Origin: a virus
IMG/VR virus record: IMGVR_UViG_3300023179_000410
Span: 1-28,160 of that record
Length of the DNA stretch: 28,160 nucleotides
Reading direction: 5' to 3' (one strand)
The notes beneath the pieces are model-generated. The model was given only the letters and a program-made list of their open reading frames with translations. It searched no databases and had not been told where the DNA came from. Below are positions 1-8,741 of the stretch, piece by piece. The position numbers and the translations under genes were made by a program. Each line of letters begins with the position of its first letter. The stretch's first letter is position 1.

Positions 1-1306
1 CTGTTAGATCGTTAACTCCGTTAGCACGTAATTCCCAAGGAAACACACCTTGTCCATATCGTGTACGATCACTATTTAAACACTTGCCACGTTCTTTTGC
101 TAATTCAACACTAGACTCAGTTAGATAAAATGCCTGATGTTCCATGAACGATTTGACTTCGGCCAGTGCATCTTTCTCACCGTATTTAAGACCTCGCTTT
201 GCGAAAAAATATGCAAGATTAGTAACACCTATGCCCAGTGGTCTAATCTCGTCGTTGCTAAGTTTACTTTGAATACTCAAAAAGTCTTGATAATCTAGAA
301 TATTATTAAGACTTCGATGTAGTATCCTTGTTGCTCTACGCATATCTTCTGGATTACGGAAAGCACCCCAATTCATCGACCCCAAGGTACACAAGGCAAT
401 TCTGCCAGTATCGTCATCTAGTCGTTTAAAGGAACGAGTAGCAAGTAAAATCTCTTGGCATAGATTACTTTGATATATAGGATCAATTAGAGTATCAAAT
501 GGTCCTTGGCGCTGTACATTATCAATATATGTTAAGTAGATACGCCCCGTATCAGTACGTTCTTTGAGAATACCGCCTTTAAATACTTCCTCTGCACTCA
601 TTGTTTTCTTGCGGATATCAGTACGTGACTCATATTCTACATACAGCTTTTCAAACAACTCAATGTCTCTATAGAACGCTTCGTACAAGTCAGGAACTTC
701 GTTAGGGTCAAAGAAAGTAATATTACCTTGCTCTTTGAATCTGCGCCAAAAGAATGCTGATAATACTACGTTGTAGTCCATGTGACGGACGCGAGTTTCT
801 TCTGTTCCTTGATTGTTCTTTAATACGATTAGATCATCAAACTGATAATGCCAAATGGGATATGTGATGGTAGCACTAGCATTGCGAATTCCGCCTTGCG
901 AATTGTGAGTTAGTACCATCGGTCCATCGTTACTAGCAGAAGCAAAAAACGTATGAGTGTCTTCTACTGTAATGTCAATGTAGCCCGTATCGTTTTGCTG
1001 GGCAAAGTCGGCGACCAGCAGTCGAGTAAATCCGCCTTCCGTAAGTACTCGATCTTCGCTAGTAAGTTCCCTCGGTTTCTTTTGTAAGAACGAACCGGAT
1101 TCTGACCATACCATTATAGGGTGATTCATTGAACAGTTTAATGTTACTCCGTTTTCAAATTCCAAACGAACTTGATCTTCATGGTTAACAACGGTGTCCC
1201 ATTTATTAGTTACTGCTTTGAACACAATATCACCTTGCTCAGTCTTAGTTTTAATTTTCATACCCACTGATAGGTCTTTTATTTGAATCTTTTTAGTTTT
1301 TACCAT
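1..1306 (-). CDS. nrdA: Split-intein C-half fused to C-terminal half of class Ia ribonucleotide reductase large subunit (runs off window)
   Basis: Read by hand from ATG at 1304-1306 to the window edge, 435 codons with no stop. Residues 1-135 are an intein C part: block B has NCSMNHP (His62), block F is GYIDITVEDTHTF (108-120), and it ends VLTHN (His134, Asn135). Residue 136 is the Ser +1 of SQGGIRNASATITYP, which continues NrdA. The reductase part keeps the radical and active-site residues: N281-x-C283-x-E285 in SNLCQE and C306 in ALCTLGSMNWG, matching E. coli N437, C439, E441 and C462. The C-terminal tyrosines and redox cysteines lie outside the window. The start overlaps the end of the HNH gene by 14 bases in another frame. 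The protein should be joined in trans to the upstream NrdA N-half to give an enzyme reducing ribonucleoside diphosphates. Confidence 0.93.
   Translation of the reverse strand, partial: MVKTKKIQIKDLSVGMKIKTKTEQGDIVFKAVTNKWDTVVNHEDQVRLEFENGVTLNCSMNHPIMVWSESGSFLQKKPRELTSEDRVLTEGGFTRLLVADFAQQNDTGYIDITVEDTHTFFASASNDGPMVLTHNSQGGIRNASATITYPIWHYQFDDLIVLKNNQGTEETRVRHMDYNVVLSAFFWRRFKEQGNITFFDPNEVPDLYEAFYRDIELFEKLYVEYESRTDIRKKTMSAEEVFKGGILKERTDTGRIYLTYIDNVQRQGPFDTLIDPIYQSNLCQEILLATRSFKRLDDDTGRIALCTLGSMNWGAFRNPEDMRRATRILHRSLNNILDYQDFLSIQSKLSNDEIRPLGIGVTNLAYFFAKRGLKYGEKDALAEVKSFMEHQAFYLTESSVELAKERGKCLNSDRTRYGQGVFPWELRANGVNDLT
902..1306 (-). other. C-terminal split-intein segment (IntC, 135 aa)
   Basis: This is the coding segment for residues 1-135 of the downstream nrdA fragment. 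The splice junction is Asn (902-904) followed by Ser (899-901). Block B His, block F Asp/His, the penultimate His, the terminal Asn and the +1 Ser are all present, so the chemistry of trans-splicing looks intact. The boundary is fixed by alignment with E. coli NrdA, where KSC is followed directly by SQGG. Confidence 0.92.
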
Positions 1307-1982
1307 TTTCGTGTTCTTCTTTCAAAACTTTACAATTATTGCCGTGCCACCTGCTATAGGATCCTGCTTCTATTTCTCTATTACAATGCGGACATATTTT
1401 CTTTTTAGTTTTATTTCTAGAATTTAAATCTACTTCACTTATGTTTTTATTTTCTTTACATTTCAAGCCATGGTATTTTTTGTACGGTCCAGCGGACACC
1501 TCTTTATCACAAAATTCGCATTTCTTTTTTAATAACGGTCTACCTGTTAATGATTTACTTATTTTTTCTCTATATTCCGGTGTTCTTGTCTTACCAAAAG
1601 AATGATGCTTATCTCCTACAAACCGTCCCACCATATGTTCCGAATGCAACCTTGCAAAATTTTCTCTTACTATTTGATATTGAGTTGCTGTGGGGGCATA
1701 TCTCTGTTGATGTTGATTTGACATTAACATTTTATTAACTGCACATACCATTTTATACTTAATGTTACCCGTTGTGCATTTAGCTAATAACAAATGACAA
1801 ATAAAATGTTCTTTTGCAGTTAAGGAAACAATATTATTAATATTATCGTCTCCGCCAGCTGATCTAGGAATCACATGATGTTTCTCAATGTAGCCGGTTG
1901 GATTTCTAAATTTCGCCCTATTTACAATGTTGAAATACCATTTTGAATATTTGTTCTCGACAAATATGTTAGTCAGTGTCAT
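1293..1982 (-). CDS. Free-standing HNH homing endonuclease with two zinc-finger-like repeats, inserted between the nrdA halves
   Basis: About 229 residues. The HNH core is KHHVIPR (about 34-40), an Asn in DNINNIVSL (about 45-53) and a His in AKEHFICHLLL (about 56-65), as in phage HNH endonucleases. The C-terminal part has two repeats of the form CxxC-Y-HG-C (CEFC...HGLKC and CPHC...HGNNC), probably zinc-binding DNA-recognition modules. The middle carries an NUMOD-like stretch around GKTRTPEYREKISKSL. The frame opens at 1997, but ATG at 1980-1982 has AAGGGG six bases upstream, so I prefer it; 1985 is also possible. The gene overlaps the nrdA N-half end and the C-half start in different frames. 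Its likely role is to cut intein-less nrdA alleles and spread the intein. Confidence 0.85.
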   Translation of the reverse strand: MTLTNIFVENKYSKWYFNIVNRAKFRNPTGYIEKHHVIPRSAGGDDNINNIVSLTAKEHFICHLLLAKCTTGNIKYKMVCAVNKMLMSNQHQQRYAPTATQYQIVRENFARLHSEHMVGRFVGDKHHSFGKTRTPEYREKISKSLTGRPLLKKKCEFCDKEVSAGPYKKYHGLKCKENKNISEVDLNSRNKTKKKICPHCNREIEAGSYSRWHGNNCKVLKEEHENGKN

Positions 1983-2922
1983 CATGGTCCCCTTCATCTA
2001 GAATCTCTACCCAAGTCTCCGGGGTAACACAACAAGATCGAAGGTCTCCGAAGAATTTTTTCAAAAATGGCAAGAGACCTGTATGCATGATTTCACCCCC
2101 TCGAATAGGACTGCCTAAGGGTCGTAGTCTTCCAATCTCTAACCCAATGCCAGCACGTTTGCTGGCATACTTTGCCATCATTTCACCTGAAGCAAAGATT
2201 GAATCCAAGTTGTCATCACTACGAATGAGTACGCAACTGCTAAATTGCTTAGTAGGAGTACCCAGCCCGGCAAGGACAGGAGTAGCCAACGTAAAAAGAC
2301 CATCACTTGCTGCATTGTAATATTCTTTGATGTATCGCATTCTCGCTGAGTTCGGTTCTTCTCGGTGAAATATAGTAGCGGCCGCGACCATGTATCTAAT
2401 TTGCGGAGTTTCATAAATTTCCTTTGTTGCTCGATTTCTTACTAGGTATTTTTCGATTAGTTGTTCAAGTGCTGCATAGCTATATTGCTCGTCTTTACCG
2501 TGATCGATGATCTGTTCCATTTTATTCCAGTCATCTTCACTGTACCATTCAAGTAGTTCAGGGGTATATAATCCTACACCGACATTTTTCTTTACAATTT
2601 CATATATATGTGGAACAGCATATGTGCCATATACATCTTTTCTAAGCATACTTAATCGTTGTTTACCAGCAACATACTGATAATTAGTATGTCCTACTTC
2701 TGGATTAGATTCAACATCGATCAAATCTACAATAGCTCTAAGTGTGATACCATCGATGTCTCTGGTGGTAATACCATCATAGAAGTGGGGATGAGCTTTA
2801 ATTTCAATCATTGACTGACTGACATCAGCGATTCCTTGACAAACTTTTGCCACTTGGGATTGCCATTTTTCAATGGTCAGTGGTTCTTTTTTGTTATTTC
2901 TTTTTATTACTTGAATTTCCAT
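1969..2922 (-). CDS. nrdA: N-terminal half of class Ia ribonucleotide reductase large subunit fused to a short split-intein N part
   Basis: 317 residues. Residues 1-95 form an ATP-cone-like allosteric region (VIKRNNKKEPLTIEKW, then HFYDGITTRDI), and the start of the catalytic barrel follows. C230 in KQFSSCVLI corresponds to E. coli C225 of the redox-active pair. RAGIGLEIGRLRPLGSPIRGG is the usual family signature. The NrdA part stops at RSC297, and Cys298 is the intein Cys1. The start at 2920-2922 is chosen because AGAGAA lies just upstream and homology begins there; an in-frame TTG-led extension to 2967 would overlap the preceding gene. Alone it is an incomplete enzyme. It must pair with the fragment at 1-1306 by protein splicing. 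Confidence 0.94.
   Translation of the reverse strand: MEIQVIKRNNKKEPLTIEKWQSQVAKVCQGIADVSQSMIEIKAHPHFYDGITTRDIDGITLRAIVDLIDVESNPEVGHTNYQYVAGKQRLSMLRKDVYGTYAVPHIYEIVKKNVGVGLYTPELLEWYSEDDWNKMEQIIDHGKDEQYSYAALEQLIEKYLVRNRATKEIYETPQIRYMVAAATIFHREEPNSARMRYIKEYYNAASDGLFTLATPVLAGLGTPTKQFSSCVLIRSDDNLDSIFASGEMMAKYASKRAGIGLEIGRLRPLGSPIRGGEIMHTGLLPFLKKFFGDLRSCCVTPETWVEILDEGDHDDTD
1972..2031 (-). other. N-terminal split-intein segment (IntN, 20 aa)
   Basis: This encodes the last 20 residues of the upstream nrdA fragment, starting at Cys1 (codon 2029-2031) with block A CVTPETWVEI and ending before the TAA at 1969-1971. The preceding RSC and the SQGG after the C part together restore the uninterrupted NrdA sequence. 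An IntN this short matches the atypical split inteins cut near block A, rather than the usual roughly 100-residue IntN. Confidence 0.9.
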
Positions 2923-6892: not shown

Positions 6893-6918
6893 AAAAAGGC
6901 AACAGAATGTTGCCTTTT
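6893..6918 (-). terminator. Rho-independent terminator after the 6948-7370 gene
   Basis: On the minus strand a 7-bp perfect stem (GGCAACA / TGTTGCC, 6898-6914) with a 3-base loop is followed by a run of five T. A run of A on the other side makes it potentially bidirectional. A second short palindrome (TAGTAAAACTTTTACTA) lies just upstream, at about 6921-6937. Confidence 0.88.
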
Positions 6919-6947
6919 AATAGTAAAAGTTTTACTATTACTGATTA

Positions 6948-7370
6948 TTAAGCACCAGCTGTGGTAACAAACTTCAGTCCAGGCTGTGCAACCTTGACGC
7001 CAGTTAAGTTAACAGTGCTAACTGTACCCAAAGCTACAATGTTAGCTTGCAAGTCAGTAGCGTTCCAAGAGCTTTCTTCAACGATAACGCTGATTAGACC
7101 ATTGGTAATACCACCAATACCAGCAGAGTCAACTTGATAAGCCAGCAATGTACTGTTGATACCAACAACACGAAGAATAGCTTCAACTGCTTGGCCAGTA
7201 CCCACTGCCGATGTGAATGCAACATTAGAGTTAATACTGAATGCCTGAACAGGCTTACCAATACCAGTGCTTATTACTGCACCCACTGATTCAGAGGCTT
7301 GCGAAACACCAACGTTACCTGTATTGACTACGTTTTGTGCATTACCATTTGTACGTGTAAAAATTGCCAT
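6948..7370 (-). CDS. Probable abundant virion structural protein (140 aa)
   Basis: 140 residues, beta-rich and Val/Ala/Gly/Thr-rich (FSINSNVAFTSAVGTGQAVEAILRVVGIN), with no signal peptide, no catalytic motif and few charges. It stands alone: a CATAAATA late box at 7412-7418, a strong AAAGGA ribosome site before ATG 7368-7370, and a strong terminator right after the stop. Such an isolated, well-signalled unit is typical of a highly expressed capsid, decoration or tail component. I do not recognise the family, so the structural role is inferred from context and composition. Confidence 0.8.
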   Translation of the reverse strand: MAIFTRTNGNAQNVVNTGNVGVSQASESVGAVISTGIGKPVQAFSINSNVAFTSAVGTGQAVEAILRVVGINSTLLAYQVDSAGIGGITNGLISVIVEESSWNATDLQANIVALGTVSTVNLTGVKVAQPGLKFVTTAGA

Positions 7371-7411
7371 TTTGTTTTTCCTTTGTTATACTGCGATTTA
7401 ACGCATGTAAA

Positions 7412-7418
7412 TATTTAT
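7412..7418 (-). promoter_or_regulatory. T4 late-promoter-like box CATAAATA
   Basis: GCATAAATATT on the minus strand, about 42 bases before the ATG at 7370. The AAAGGA ribosome site lies between. Confidence 0.6.
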
Positions 7419-7445
7419 GCCAGACCCTAAATTTCGGGCTTCTGA

Positions 7446-8741
7446 CTAAGTATTCTTCCAATTCTTAACCGCATTTGCATTAGCATGACTAAATTCTAGC
7501 CTATCAACCAGCTTGACTGCCCCACCATCGTGCCCTACAGCCACAAAACCTTCGGGCCTAGTTACTTGATATCCTGTATCTGTTTTAATAAAGGTATTGG
7601 CATAGCTTTCAATTTGGGTTAGCTTTTTGATTATTATTAATTTTAACTCTATTACCTTTTTATATATTGCCAAAACACCCAACAATGTGTTGCTGTGATC
7701 AGCTATAAATTCTTCTTTTTCCTTGATCTTACTCAAACGAGCTTGTGCAGCTTTGCTGTCTGGGCCACCCTTTAATTGGGCTATGGCCTTTTCCTGCTCA
7801 CCTTTATAATAAGACACAAATTGTTTAAGGAATTTGGTTGGGTCGGCCAGTGGTTGCCCTGCATTGACCAATGAATTTATAAATGGCTTTACAAATTTTG
7901 AAAATTCTGTGTTTGCTGAATCTTTATCAGCTGTGGCGCTGGTTTTCAATACCTTGTTGAAATTGTGAGGGGTAATTTTCCTCAATGTTATAGCAGCTTG
8001 ACCTAGGCCACGTTGCAGATTTGAATTTTCTTCAGGCGTTAAACTAGCTATACCTGTGTAATCATGGTAAAAAGCATCATCAAACCAAACATTTTTAGAT
8101 TGATTTAAACCTGCAACACTGAATCCAAATCTGGCATTCATGTGCAAAATATCTGGGCCTTCATAATAGGTATGAAATATAATACCCAACTTGGCACTGG
8201 CCATTTTTTTAGCCAATGCCGAATCAGCTTTGACTGCATAAGTAATGGTATTGGGGGTAAAAGTAAGGTAATTTTCGCCATCAATAGTATTGTTTACTAA
8301 GTCACTGGCAGTAAACATTAAATCGCCTTTTATTACTCCGCTAATGCCCAAACCAGGCAAATATTTTAAACACAATTCTAATTTATCTGCCAAGCCAGGC
8401 CTTTCACTATACCATTTTTTAATGTCTCTTTTGGTTTTACAAATCTTAGGTTCACCCTGTGCAAAAACGCTTTTGGTTCCAACAAAAAATTTACCGTCAC
8501 TGGGATCTATTCCACAGGTTATACTGGGCGCCCCGTCCCATTTTATAGTTATATTGCTGGACTTGCCGCTGCCCTGCACCAGCATCGATCTAATGCTTTC
8601 AATATAATTTAGTGCTTTTTGTGCTCCGAGATATCCCTCATTGAAAATTAAATCTTCAATGTGTTCTAAGTGTGCGGCTTTTTCTGTAGCTGATTCACAT
8701 AAAAGCCATTTTGGAGTCTTTTTAATTTCAAATAACTTCAT
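7446..8741 (-). CDS. DUF6267-like protein with nucleotidyltransferase/ligase-type motifs
   Basis: 431 residues from ATG 8739-8741, which overlaps the upstream TGA. The sequence HLEHIEDLIFNEG, then ITIKWDGAPS (Lys67) and FFVGTKSVF, resembles the phage family I know as DUF6267. KWDG is the KxDG motif I of DNA/RNA ligases and capping enzymes, where Lys carries the nucleotidyl group. GVIKGDLMF (135-143), LGIIFHTYYEG (185-194), EGFVA (397-401) and VKLVDR (409-414) fall where motifs III to V would. Residues 300-375 are a Lys/Glu-rich helical insertion. It probably transfers or binds a nucleotide, perhaps as an RNA or DNA end-joining enzyme. The activity is inferred; the motif I match is direct. Confidence 0.8.
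   Translation of the reverse strand: MKLFEIKKTPKWLLCESATEKAAHLEHIEDLIFNEGYLGAQKALNYIESIRSMLVQGSGKSSNITIKWDGAPSITCGIDPSDGKFFVGTKSVFAQGEPKICKTKRDIKKWYSERPGLADKLELCLKYLPGLGISGVIKGDLMFTASDLVNNTIDGENYLTFTPNTITYAVKADSALAKKMASAKLGIIFHTYYEGPDILHMNARFGFSVAGLNQSKNVWFDDAFYHDYTGIASLTPEENSNLQRGLGQAAITLRKITPHNFNKVLKTSATADKDSANTEFSKFVKPFINSLVNAGQPLADPTKFLKQFVSYYKGEQEKAIAQLKGGPDSKAAQARLSKIKEKEEFIADHSNTLLGVLAIYKKVIELKLIIIKKLTQIESYANTFIKTDTGYQVTRPEGFVAVGHDGGAVKLVDRLEFSHANANAVKNWKNT

Follow-up and report, generated by a model that had tools for sequence, protein, structure and literature searches.

Fractured genes, in which a split intein divides the coding sequence of a conserved enzyme and a free-standing endonuclease gene stands between the two parts, have been described, and metagenomic nrdA, the gene for ribonucleotide reductase (RNR), is among their known targets (Dassa et al., 2009; cited in PMC3653736). 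An HNH homing endonuclease gene, orf154, has been reported inside the split intein of polB in Pseudomonas phage MIJ3 (PMC6892783). Natural N-terminal intein fragments (IntN) range from 15 to 37 amino acids (aa) (PMC13014065), and splits at the S1 position, which leave a short IntN, are already published (PMC10189870; PMC13014065). The locus considered here lies in IMG/VR virus record IMGVR_UViG_3300023179_000410, a stretch of 28,160 bp that is referred to, at its full length, as the window. We consider it highly probable that the window holds a fractured T4-like phage nrdA with an S1-split, trans-splicing intein and an HNH homing endonuclease gene in the break. This reading is founded on the anatomy of the locus, the splice residues, the recurrence of the break, the fold of a relative, empty insertion sites and the exchange of slot genes between close relatives.

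Broken nrdA genes, inteins split at S1 and HNH genes within split inteins are all known already, and the window has points in common with each described system. As in the fractured genes of Dassa et al. (2009), a split intein interrupts the gene of a conserved enzyme and a free-standing endonuclease gene accompanies it; distinctive of the window are the split near the intein N-terminus and an intein family whose slot holds several nuclease types. It shares with MIJ3 the HNH gene within a split intein, the host gene there being polB. Aeromonas phage Aeh1 also carries an HNH gene (mobE) inside nrdA but, unlike the window, has no intein, and its halves are functional unspliced (PMC2988022).

The nrdA locus occupies the minus strand as three intact overlapping ORFs (open reading frames), with the following features:

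2922-1969, minus strand: ORF of the NrdA N-half plus IntN, from translation
2032..2922, minus strand: NrdA N-extein, 297 aa, ending ...FFGDLRSC, the final Cys being the thiyl-residue equivalent
1969..2031, minus strand: IntN, 20 aa (CVTPETWVEILDEGDHDDTD) plus stop TAA, with the Cys1 nucleophile
1989..1994, minus strand: Shine-Dalgarno-like AAGGGG within the IntN codons, three bases ahead of the HNH ATGATG
1293..1985, minus strand: HNH endonuclease gene, 230 aa (231 codons with stop), with a possible upstream ATG at 1997
1307..1326, minus strand: 3' end of the HNH gene, with agaagaacacgaaa leading up to the ATG of the C-terminal intein part (IntC), resembling the 3' tail of GIY-YIG-type ORFs in relatives
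1306-2, minus strand: ORF of IntC plus the NrdA C-half, cut by the contig end
902..1306, minus strand: IntC, 135 aa (MVKTKKIQ...MVLTHN), with block B CSMNHP, block F YIDITVEDTHTFF and block G VLTHN
2..901, minus strand: NrdA C-extein (SQGGIRNAS...), 300 aa, incomplete at the contig end, with the +1 Ser

Overlaps amount to 17 nucleotides (nt) between the NrdA-N and HNH frames (1969-1985) and 14 nt between the HNH and IntC frames (1293-1306). One enzyme is thus encoded by two ORFs with complementary intein parts at the break, and a free-standing endonuclease gene lies between those parts. The first-pass annotation had proposed exactly these three genes with short overlaps, and the ORFs, their translations and Pfam bear it out. 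In Pfam the N half matches Ribonuc_red_lgN, Ribonuc_red_lgC and ATP-cone, and the C half matches Ribonuc_red_lgC together with sub-threshold PT-HINT, Intein_splicing and Hint. Since the halves cover positions 1-63 (N) and 70-353 (C) of the PF02867 profile, the window NrdA protein is interrupted at a single point, a count that covers the in-contig part of a gene whose 3' end lies beyond the contig. Other ORFs of the window include a DnaB-like helicase, a primase, a further DNA helicase and an exonuclease, a set that fits a T4-like phage.

The intein is placed exactly between the catalytic thiyl cysteine and the next serine (RSC/CVTP...LTHN/SQGG, slashes marking the junctions). By way of the aligned KSCSQGG motif, we take the last N-extein cysteine to be the equivalent of Escherichia coli Cys439. 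The bacterial residue is named in PMC8772380. In Acinetobacter phage KARL-1 and Shewanella phage Thanatos-1 a homologous intein lies one codon earlier (VHS/CLTP...THN/CSQGG in KARL-1), so that the catalytic cysteine becomes the +1 residue; between window positions 890-2040 and L137 and L138 the homologous intein accordingly occupies two registers one codon apart, with this cysteine at -1 or +1. In either register the RNR active-site loop stays interrupted until splicing. Because the break falls at the radical site, unspliced NrdA halves should be inactive, and RNR activity would offer a direct read-out of splicing.

The window displays the motifs of a class 1 intein, namely Cys1, SMNH, YIDITVEDTHTFF, LTHN and Ser+1, with block B (CSMNHP) carrying Ser at the Thr position of TxxH. 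Over an alignment of 24 relatives (A1), 25 columns are invariant, including CSxNHP and LTHNSQG, and Cys1, CSxNHP, block F and THN/S are conserved. The 20-residue IntN, Cys1, block B His, block F, terminal His-Asn and +1 Ser listed by the first-pass annotation are all present in the translations. The closest contiguous relative, L003 (IntC 88% identical), gave a structural model with a predicted local distance difference test score (pLDDT) of 94.2 and a predicted template modelling score (pTM) of 0.88; this model, which here represents the window pair, has the HINT fold. A fold search with it retrieved numerous HINT proteins of solved structure, among them VidaL (6vgv) and the split intein NrdJ-1 (8ubs); phmmer with a contiguous intein against the PDB gave no useful match, whereas profile and fold searches did. 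On the model the split point falls in the turn between strands 7-12 and 15-20, directly after beta 2, which is the S1 position as defined for VidaL and PolB16 (PMC13014065); with its 20-aa IntN the window is an atypical split. VidaL (16-aa IntN) and PolB16 OarG (15-aa IntN) share the short IntN, the S1 split after beta 2 and the HINT fold, a likeness that for VidaL was measured by structure only. They differ from the window in host gene, and PolB16 combines Ser1 with Ser+1 where the window has Cys1 with Ser+1.

The HINT fold of the relative, the conserved splice residues and purifying selection on IntC (dN/dS about 0.04-0.07 where dS, near saturation, is estimable) make trans-splicing of the window halves very likely. 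The steps that we infer, splicing, DNA cleavage, translational coupling and the direction of gene replacement, would run as follows. A class-1-type mini-intein, split after its second beta strand, sits between the catalytic Cys and Ser; the 20-aa IntN on the N-half and the 135-aa IntC on the C-half would associate and trans-splice by means of Cys1, Ser+1 and the terminal His-Asn, yielding intact NrdA (...RSC-SQGG...). The HNH gene, probably translationally coupled to both neighbours through the overlapping frames, would spread the intein or the slot through cleavage of nrdA alleles in which it is missing. Alternatively, the NrdA halves might assemble non-covalently, with inert intein remnants, as in Aeh1, whose nrdA stays functional without splicing despite its division by mobE (PMC2988022). 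We give this little credence, for both intein parts of the window retain all splice residues, IntC is under strong purifying selection, the intein adjoins the catalytic cysteine, and relatives have contiguous forms at this site, for which splicing is needed.

The metagenome search with IntC that the first-pass annotation had called for returned 54 viral loci at the same nrdA site, 43-88% identical; together with the low IntC dN/dS, their shared position excludes chance. About ten further loci, more distantly related, came from a profile scan. IMG/VR has about 60 loci with this intein, and a few cultured phages also carry it, at the window site or one codon away; when the intein alignment was used as a profile on genome contigs, no relative was detected. 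The states of the slot are tallied as contig counts and not as independent events, since some loci are near-copies from related samples. Contiguous mini-inteins occur in L003, L015, L031, L035, L040-L042, L045-L047, L287, L289, L291 and L292, and in the cultured phages Thanatos-1 and Vibrio phage SUMAE. Among split forms the commonest filler is a GIY-YIG-like ORF of ~369-480 aa (about 27 loci, e.g. L005, L006, L016, L036, L039, L048, L049 and L281; ORFs were read in representatives and the remaining loci counted by equal slot length). A second GIY-YIG-like type of 277-299 aa, with DUF7487 where scanned, fills the slot in L050, L288, L293 and KARL-1, and a DUF7487/restriction endonuclease (REase)-like homing enzyme of ~540 or 917 aa does so in L020, L037, L038, L043 and L044. 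Split loci without an intact endonuclease are L022, L030, L033, L034, L051-L053 and L054, the slot of L022 retaining the final 41 codons of a GIY-type ORF. An HNH gene was found to fill the slot in the window only. IntN lengths extend from 12 aa (KARL-1) and 13 aa (L050, L054) up to 25 aa (L036).

Several of these fillers deserve description in their own right. The 369-aa slot ORF (L006 2905-4011 and relatives, alignment A2) has a divergent GIY-YIG-like N-terminus followed by repeated modules of ~30 residues (YVGxTxGxV...D..TG.......EF). It has no Pfam match and its model is poor (pLDDT 58); a YYCY...YSGSR-type motif and a weak match to I-TevI at rank 2 tentatively suggest that it is GIY-YIG-like. 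KARL-1 (MH713599; L137 2228-5947) is a split form with a 12-aa IntN, CLTPDTKVEILV, and the gene in its break, annotated as a hypothetical protein, resembles a GIY-YIG-type endonuclease with DUF7487. Its IntC is homologous to that of the window (~50% identity over IntC and flanks) and a nuclease-like ORF likewise lies between the halves; the two differ in IntN length, in the type of this ORF, and in the KARL-1 insertion being one codon earlier, with the catalytic Cys as +1.

This recurrence bears on whether the break is an assembly or frameshift artefact of a gene that in truth has a contiguous intein or lacks the HNH insertion, the refutation that the first-pass annotation had itself named. 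The HNH version does rest on a single contig. Dozens of independent contigs and the cultured KARL-1 nevertheless show the same type of break with intact intervening ORFs, and in the window all three ORFs are intact, the overlaps are ordinary and the slot tail resembles that of relatives. Since the intein recurs in about 60 loci of IMG/VR and in several cultured phages, the family as a whole is very unlikely to owe its break to faulty assembly, and for the window we hold such an error to be most improbable.

Exchange of the slot gene is visible between close relatives. L007 (GIY) and L037 (REase) agree in 87.5% of their nucleotides along 2.4 kb, as far as the end of IntN, then hold unrelated genes and realign at 74-85%. 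On the NrdA-N tree, with branch support by the Shimodaira–Hasegawa-like approximate likelihood ratio test (SH-aLRT), L005 (GIY) and L037 (REase) are sisters at 97, L021 (GIY) and L035 (contiguous) at 99, and L032 (GIY) pairs with L044 (REase) at 90. Interleaved on the same tree are 73 empty-site alleles. Empty nrdA sites, with N-half aa identity mostly of 86-96%, and the patchy states of intein and endonuclease on the tree fit mobility. The IntC tree is weakly resolved, and endonuclease types cluster on it no more than by chance. The gap from the IntN stop to the beginning of the IntC match has shrunk to 18 nt in L030 and 36 nt in L034. It consists of GIY-tail remnants, and the two intein parts share one frame that a single TAA interrupts; L003 reads straight through, with the IntC start, ATGGTAAAAACT, still in frame within the intein. 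As judged from sequence, these states fit endonuclease loss followed by re-fusion as a possible order of events.

The HNH protein of the window combines an HNH core (PF01844, residues ~32-65) with a NUMOD3 DNA-binding motif (PF07460, residues 118-143), both above the Pfam cut-off, and has two CxxC...H...C zinc-finger-like motifs near its end; it matches phrog_655, homing endonuclease, at E 1.1e-48. Its gene shares an ending with those of other slots. The 14 bases agaagaacacgaaa ahead of the window IntC ATG are identical in L006, the last 20 nt before this ATG are 60-80% identical to main-group GIY-type loci and 20-45% to other types, and upstream of this tail identity drops to about 15-45%. 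The protein tail, EEHENGKN, is likewise that of GIY-type ORFs. These shared endings suggest a swap in which the HNH gene most likely took the place of an earlier GIY-YIG-type gene and kept its 3' end, retaining the last ~14 nt before the IntC start. The putative HNH target may be empty nrdA or an intein without endonuclease gene.

Some points weigh against this account. The shared tail is short, and selection on the ribosome-binding site could partly explain it; a single contig shows the HNH version; the nearest IMG/VR relatives of the HNH protein are ~50% identical, with none found in an nrdA split-intein slot; and the enzyme could be inactive or not specific for nrdA. The Pfam intein matches on IntC are under curated cut-offs, so that the intein assignment depends on motifs, fold and relatives. 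No close HNH copy inside a split intein was found in IMG/VR, a search that near-copies of the window genome may have escaped. Relatives of the HNH gene are scattered over phage genomes, a few of them directly after nrdA. An origin from a local nrdA neighbour was rejected by the tree, on which HNH genes just after nrdA group apart from that of the window. HNH-like ORFs related to it were also seen antisense in a downstream nrdA break (L009 7975-7667, L011 2524-2216, L024 3581-3360).

The HNH gene might accordingly be an unrelated passenger with another target, which does not move a functional split intein. The family is widespread in phages away from nrdA, and the gene closest in the tree, that of L087 (SH-aLRT 93), lies ~2 kb from an nrdA on the opposite strand. 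Yet the window gene sits exactly in a slot that elsewhere is filled by other homing-endonuclease-like genes, and we regard the passenger explanation as unlikely, if worth keeping in mind. Joining at the RNA level, by a group I or II intron bearing the HNH gene, has a precedent in the frequent introns with homing endonuclease genes in phage nrd genes (PMC3653736). Rfam gave no intron match for the window, nor for any of ten related loci. Moreover, coding intein parts border the gap and the HNH ORF fills it and overlaps both sides, which leaves an intron next to no probability. The best reading is the one first proposed, in which nrdA is fractured by an atypically split intein and the break holds a free-standing HNH gene, and domains and junction residues agree with it. 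Of the first-pass suggestion that nrdA plus HNH may form a new member, what stands is that this is the only HNH case found in the slot, whereas an HNH gene in a split intein (MIJ3) and IntN of 15-37 aa are published.

Further inteins and breaks were observed in related nrdA genes; the window is uninterrupted at the second-intein, QSNLC and later break positions. In L006 (4001-6438), L009 and L012-L014 two split inteins lie 8 residues apart: the polypeptide with the first IntC reads THN/SQGGIRNA/CVHIDSYV... and stops ~60 residues into a second IntN; then come an ORF of 309 aa and the second IntC, which ends LLLAHN/SATIFYP. If both inteins splice, the middle piece would give NrdA just eight residues, a case of tandem trans-splicing. 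In L051-L053 (from 4001) the second intein is contiguous (CVSADSYV...VVHN), with SQGGVRGG between it and the first. Inteins at QSNLC, downstream of the first site, were noted in L020, L035, L036, L045 and L009; they are canonically split in L020, L035 and L036 (IntN ~105 aa; IntC ~36 aa with ILVHN/C) and contiguous in L009, and several loci have another nrdA break ~15 residues past QSNLC. A break just before IALCTLGS (L003 1958-2135, L016 3739-4592, L021 4897-5765, and L009 and L012 near 6900-8042) has a left piece ending in ~45 extra residues (EFKLTLDNGEEITLPGQHKVLLS...) and a right piece beginning MKxIKKECTRKVP; neither Cys1 nor His-Asn was seen in these pieces.

Because the HNH gene is one of several unrelated nucleases in the same break, the stable element is the split intein with its slot. 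It is an even proposition, in our judgement, that the break in nrdA serves as a docking slot that can be used repeatedly. An S1-split intein family at the RNR active-site cysteine would then host successive homing endonucleases of unrelated kinds (HNH, two GIY-YIG-like, REase-fold), stay split after their loss and sometimes re-join; in members with a second split intein 8 residues downstream, NrdA would be put together by tandem trans-splicing via a middle piece whose extein has 8 residues. In the open-licence literature no description came up of unrelated endonucleases exchanged within a single split-intein slot, of the 12-aa IntN of KARL-1 or of tandem split inteins; the newer elements are the slot series, this IntN and the split inteins 8 residues apart. 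The 12-aa IntN is below the natural minimum of 15 aa given in PMC10189870 and PMC13014065, and the family, with this cultured-phage example, offers a set of naturally occurring pairs with a short IntN for use in protein semisynthesis. Taken together, the loci comprise empty sites, contiguous inteins, and splits that hold one of four nuclease types, a decayed nuclease or a spacer of 18-36 nt; they may represent possible steps by which an essential gene is fractured and the break persists.
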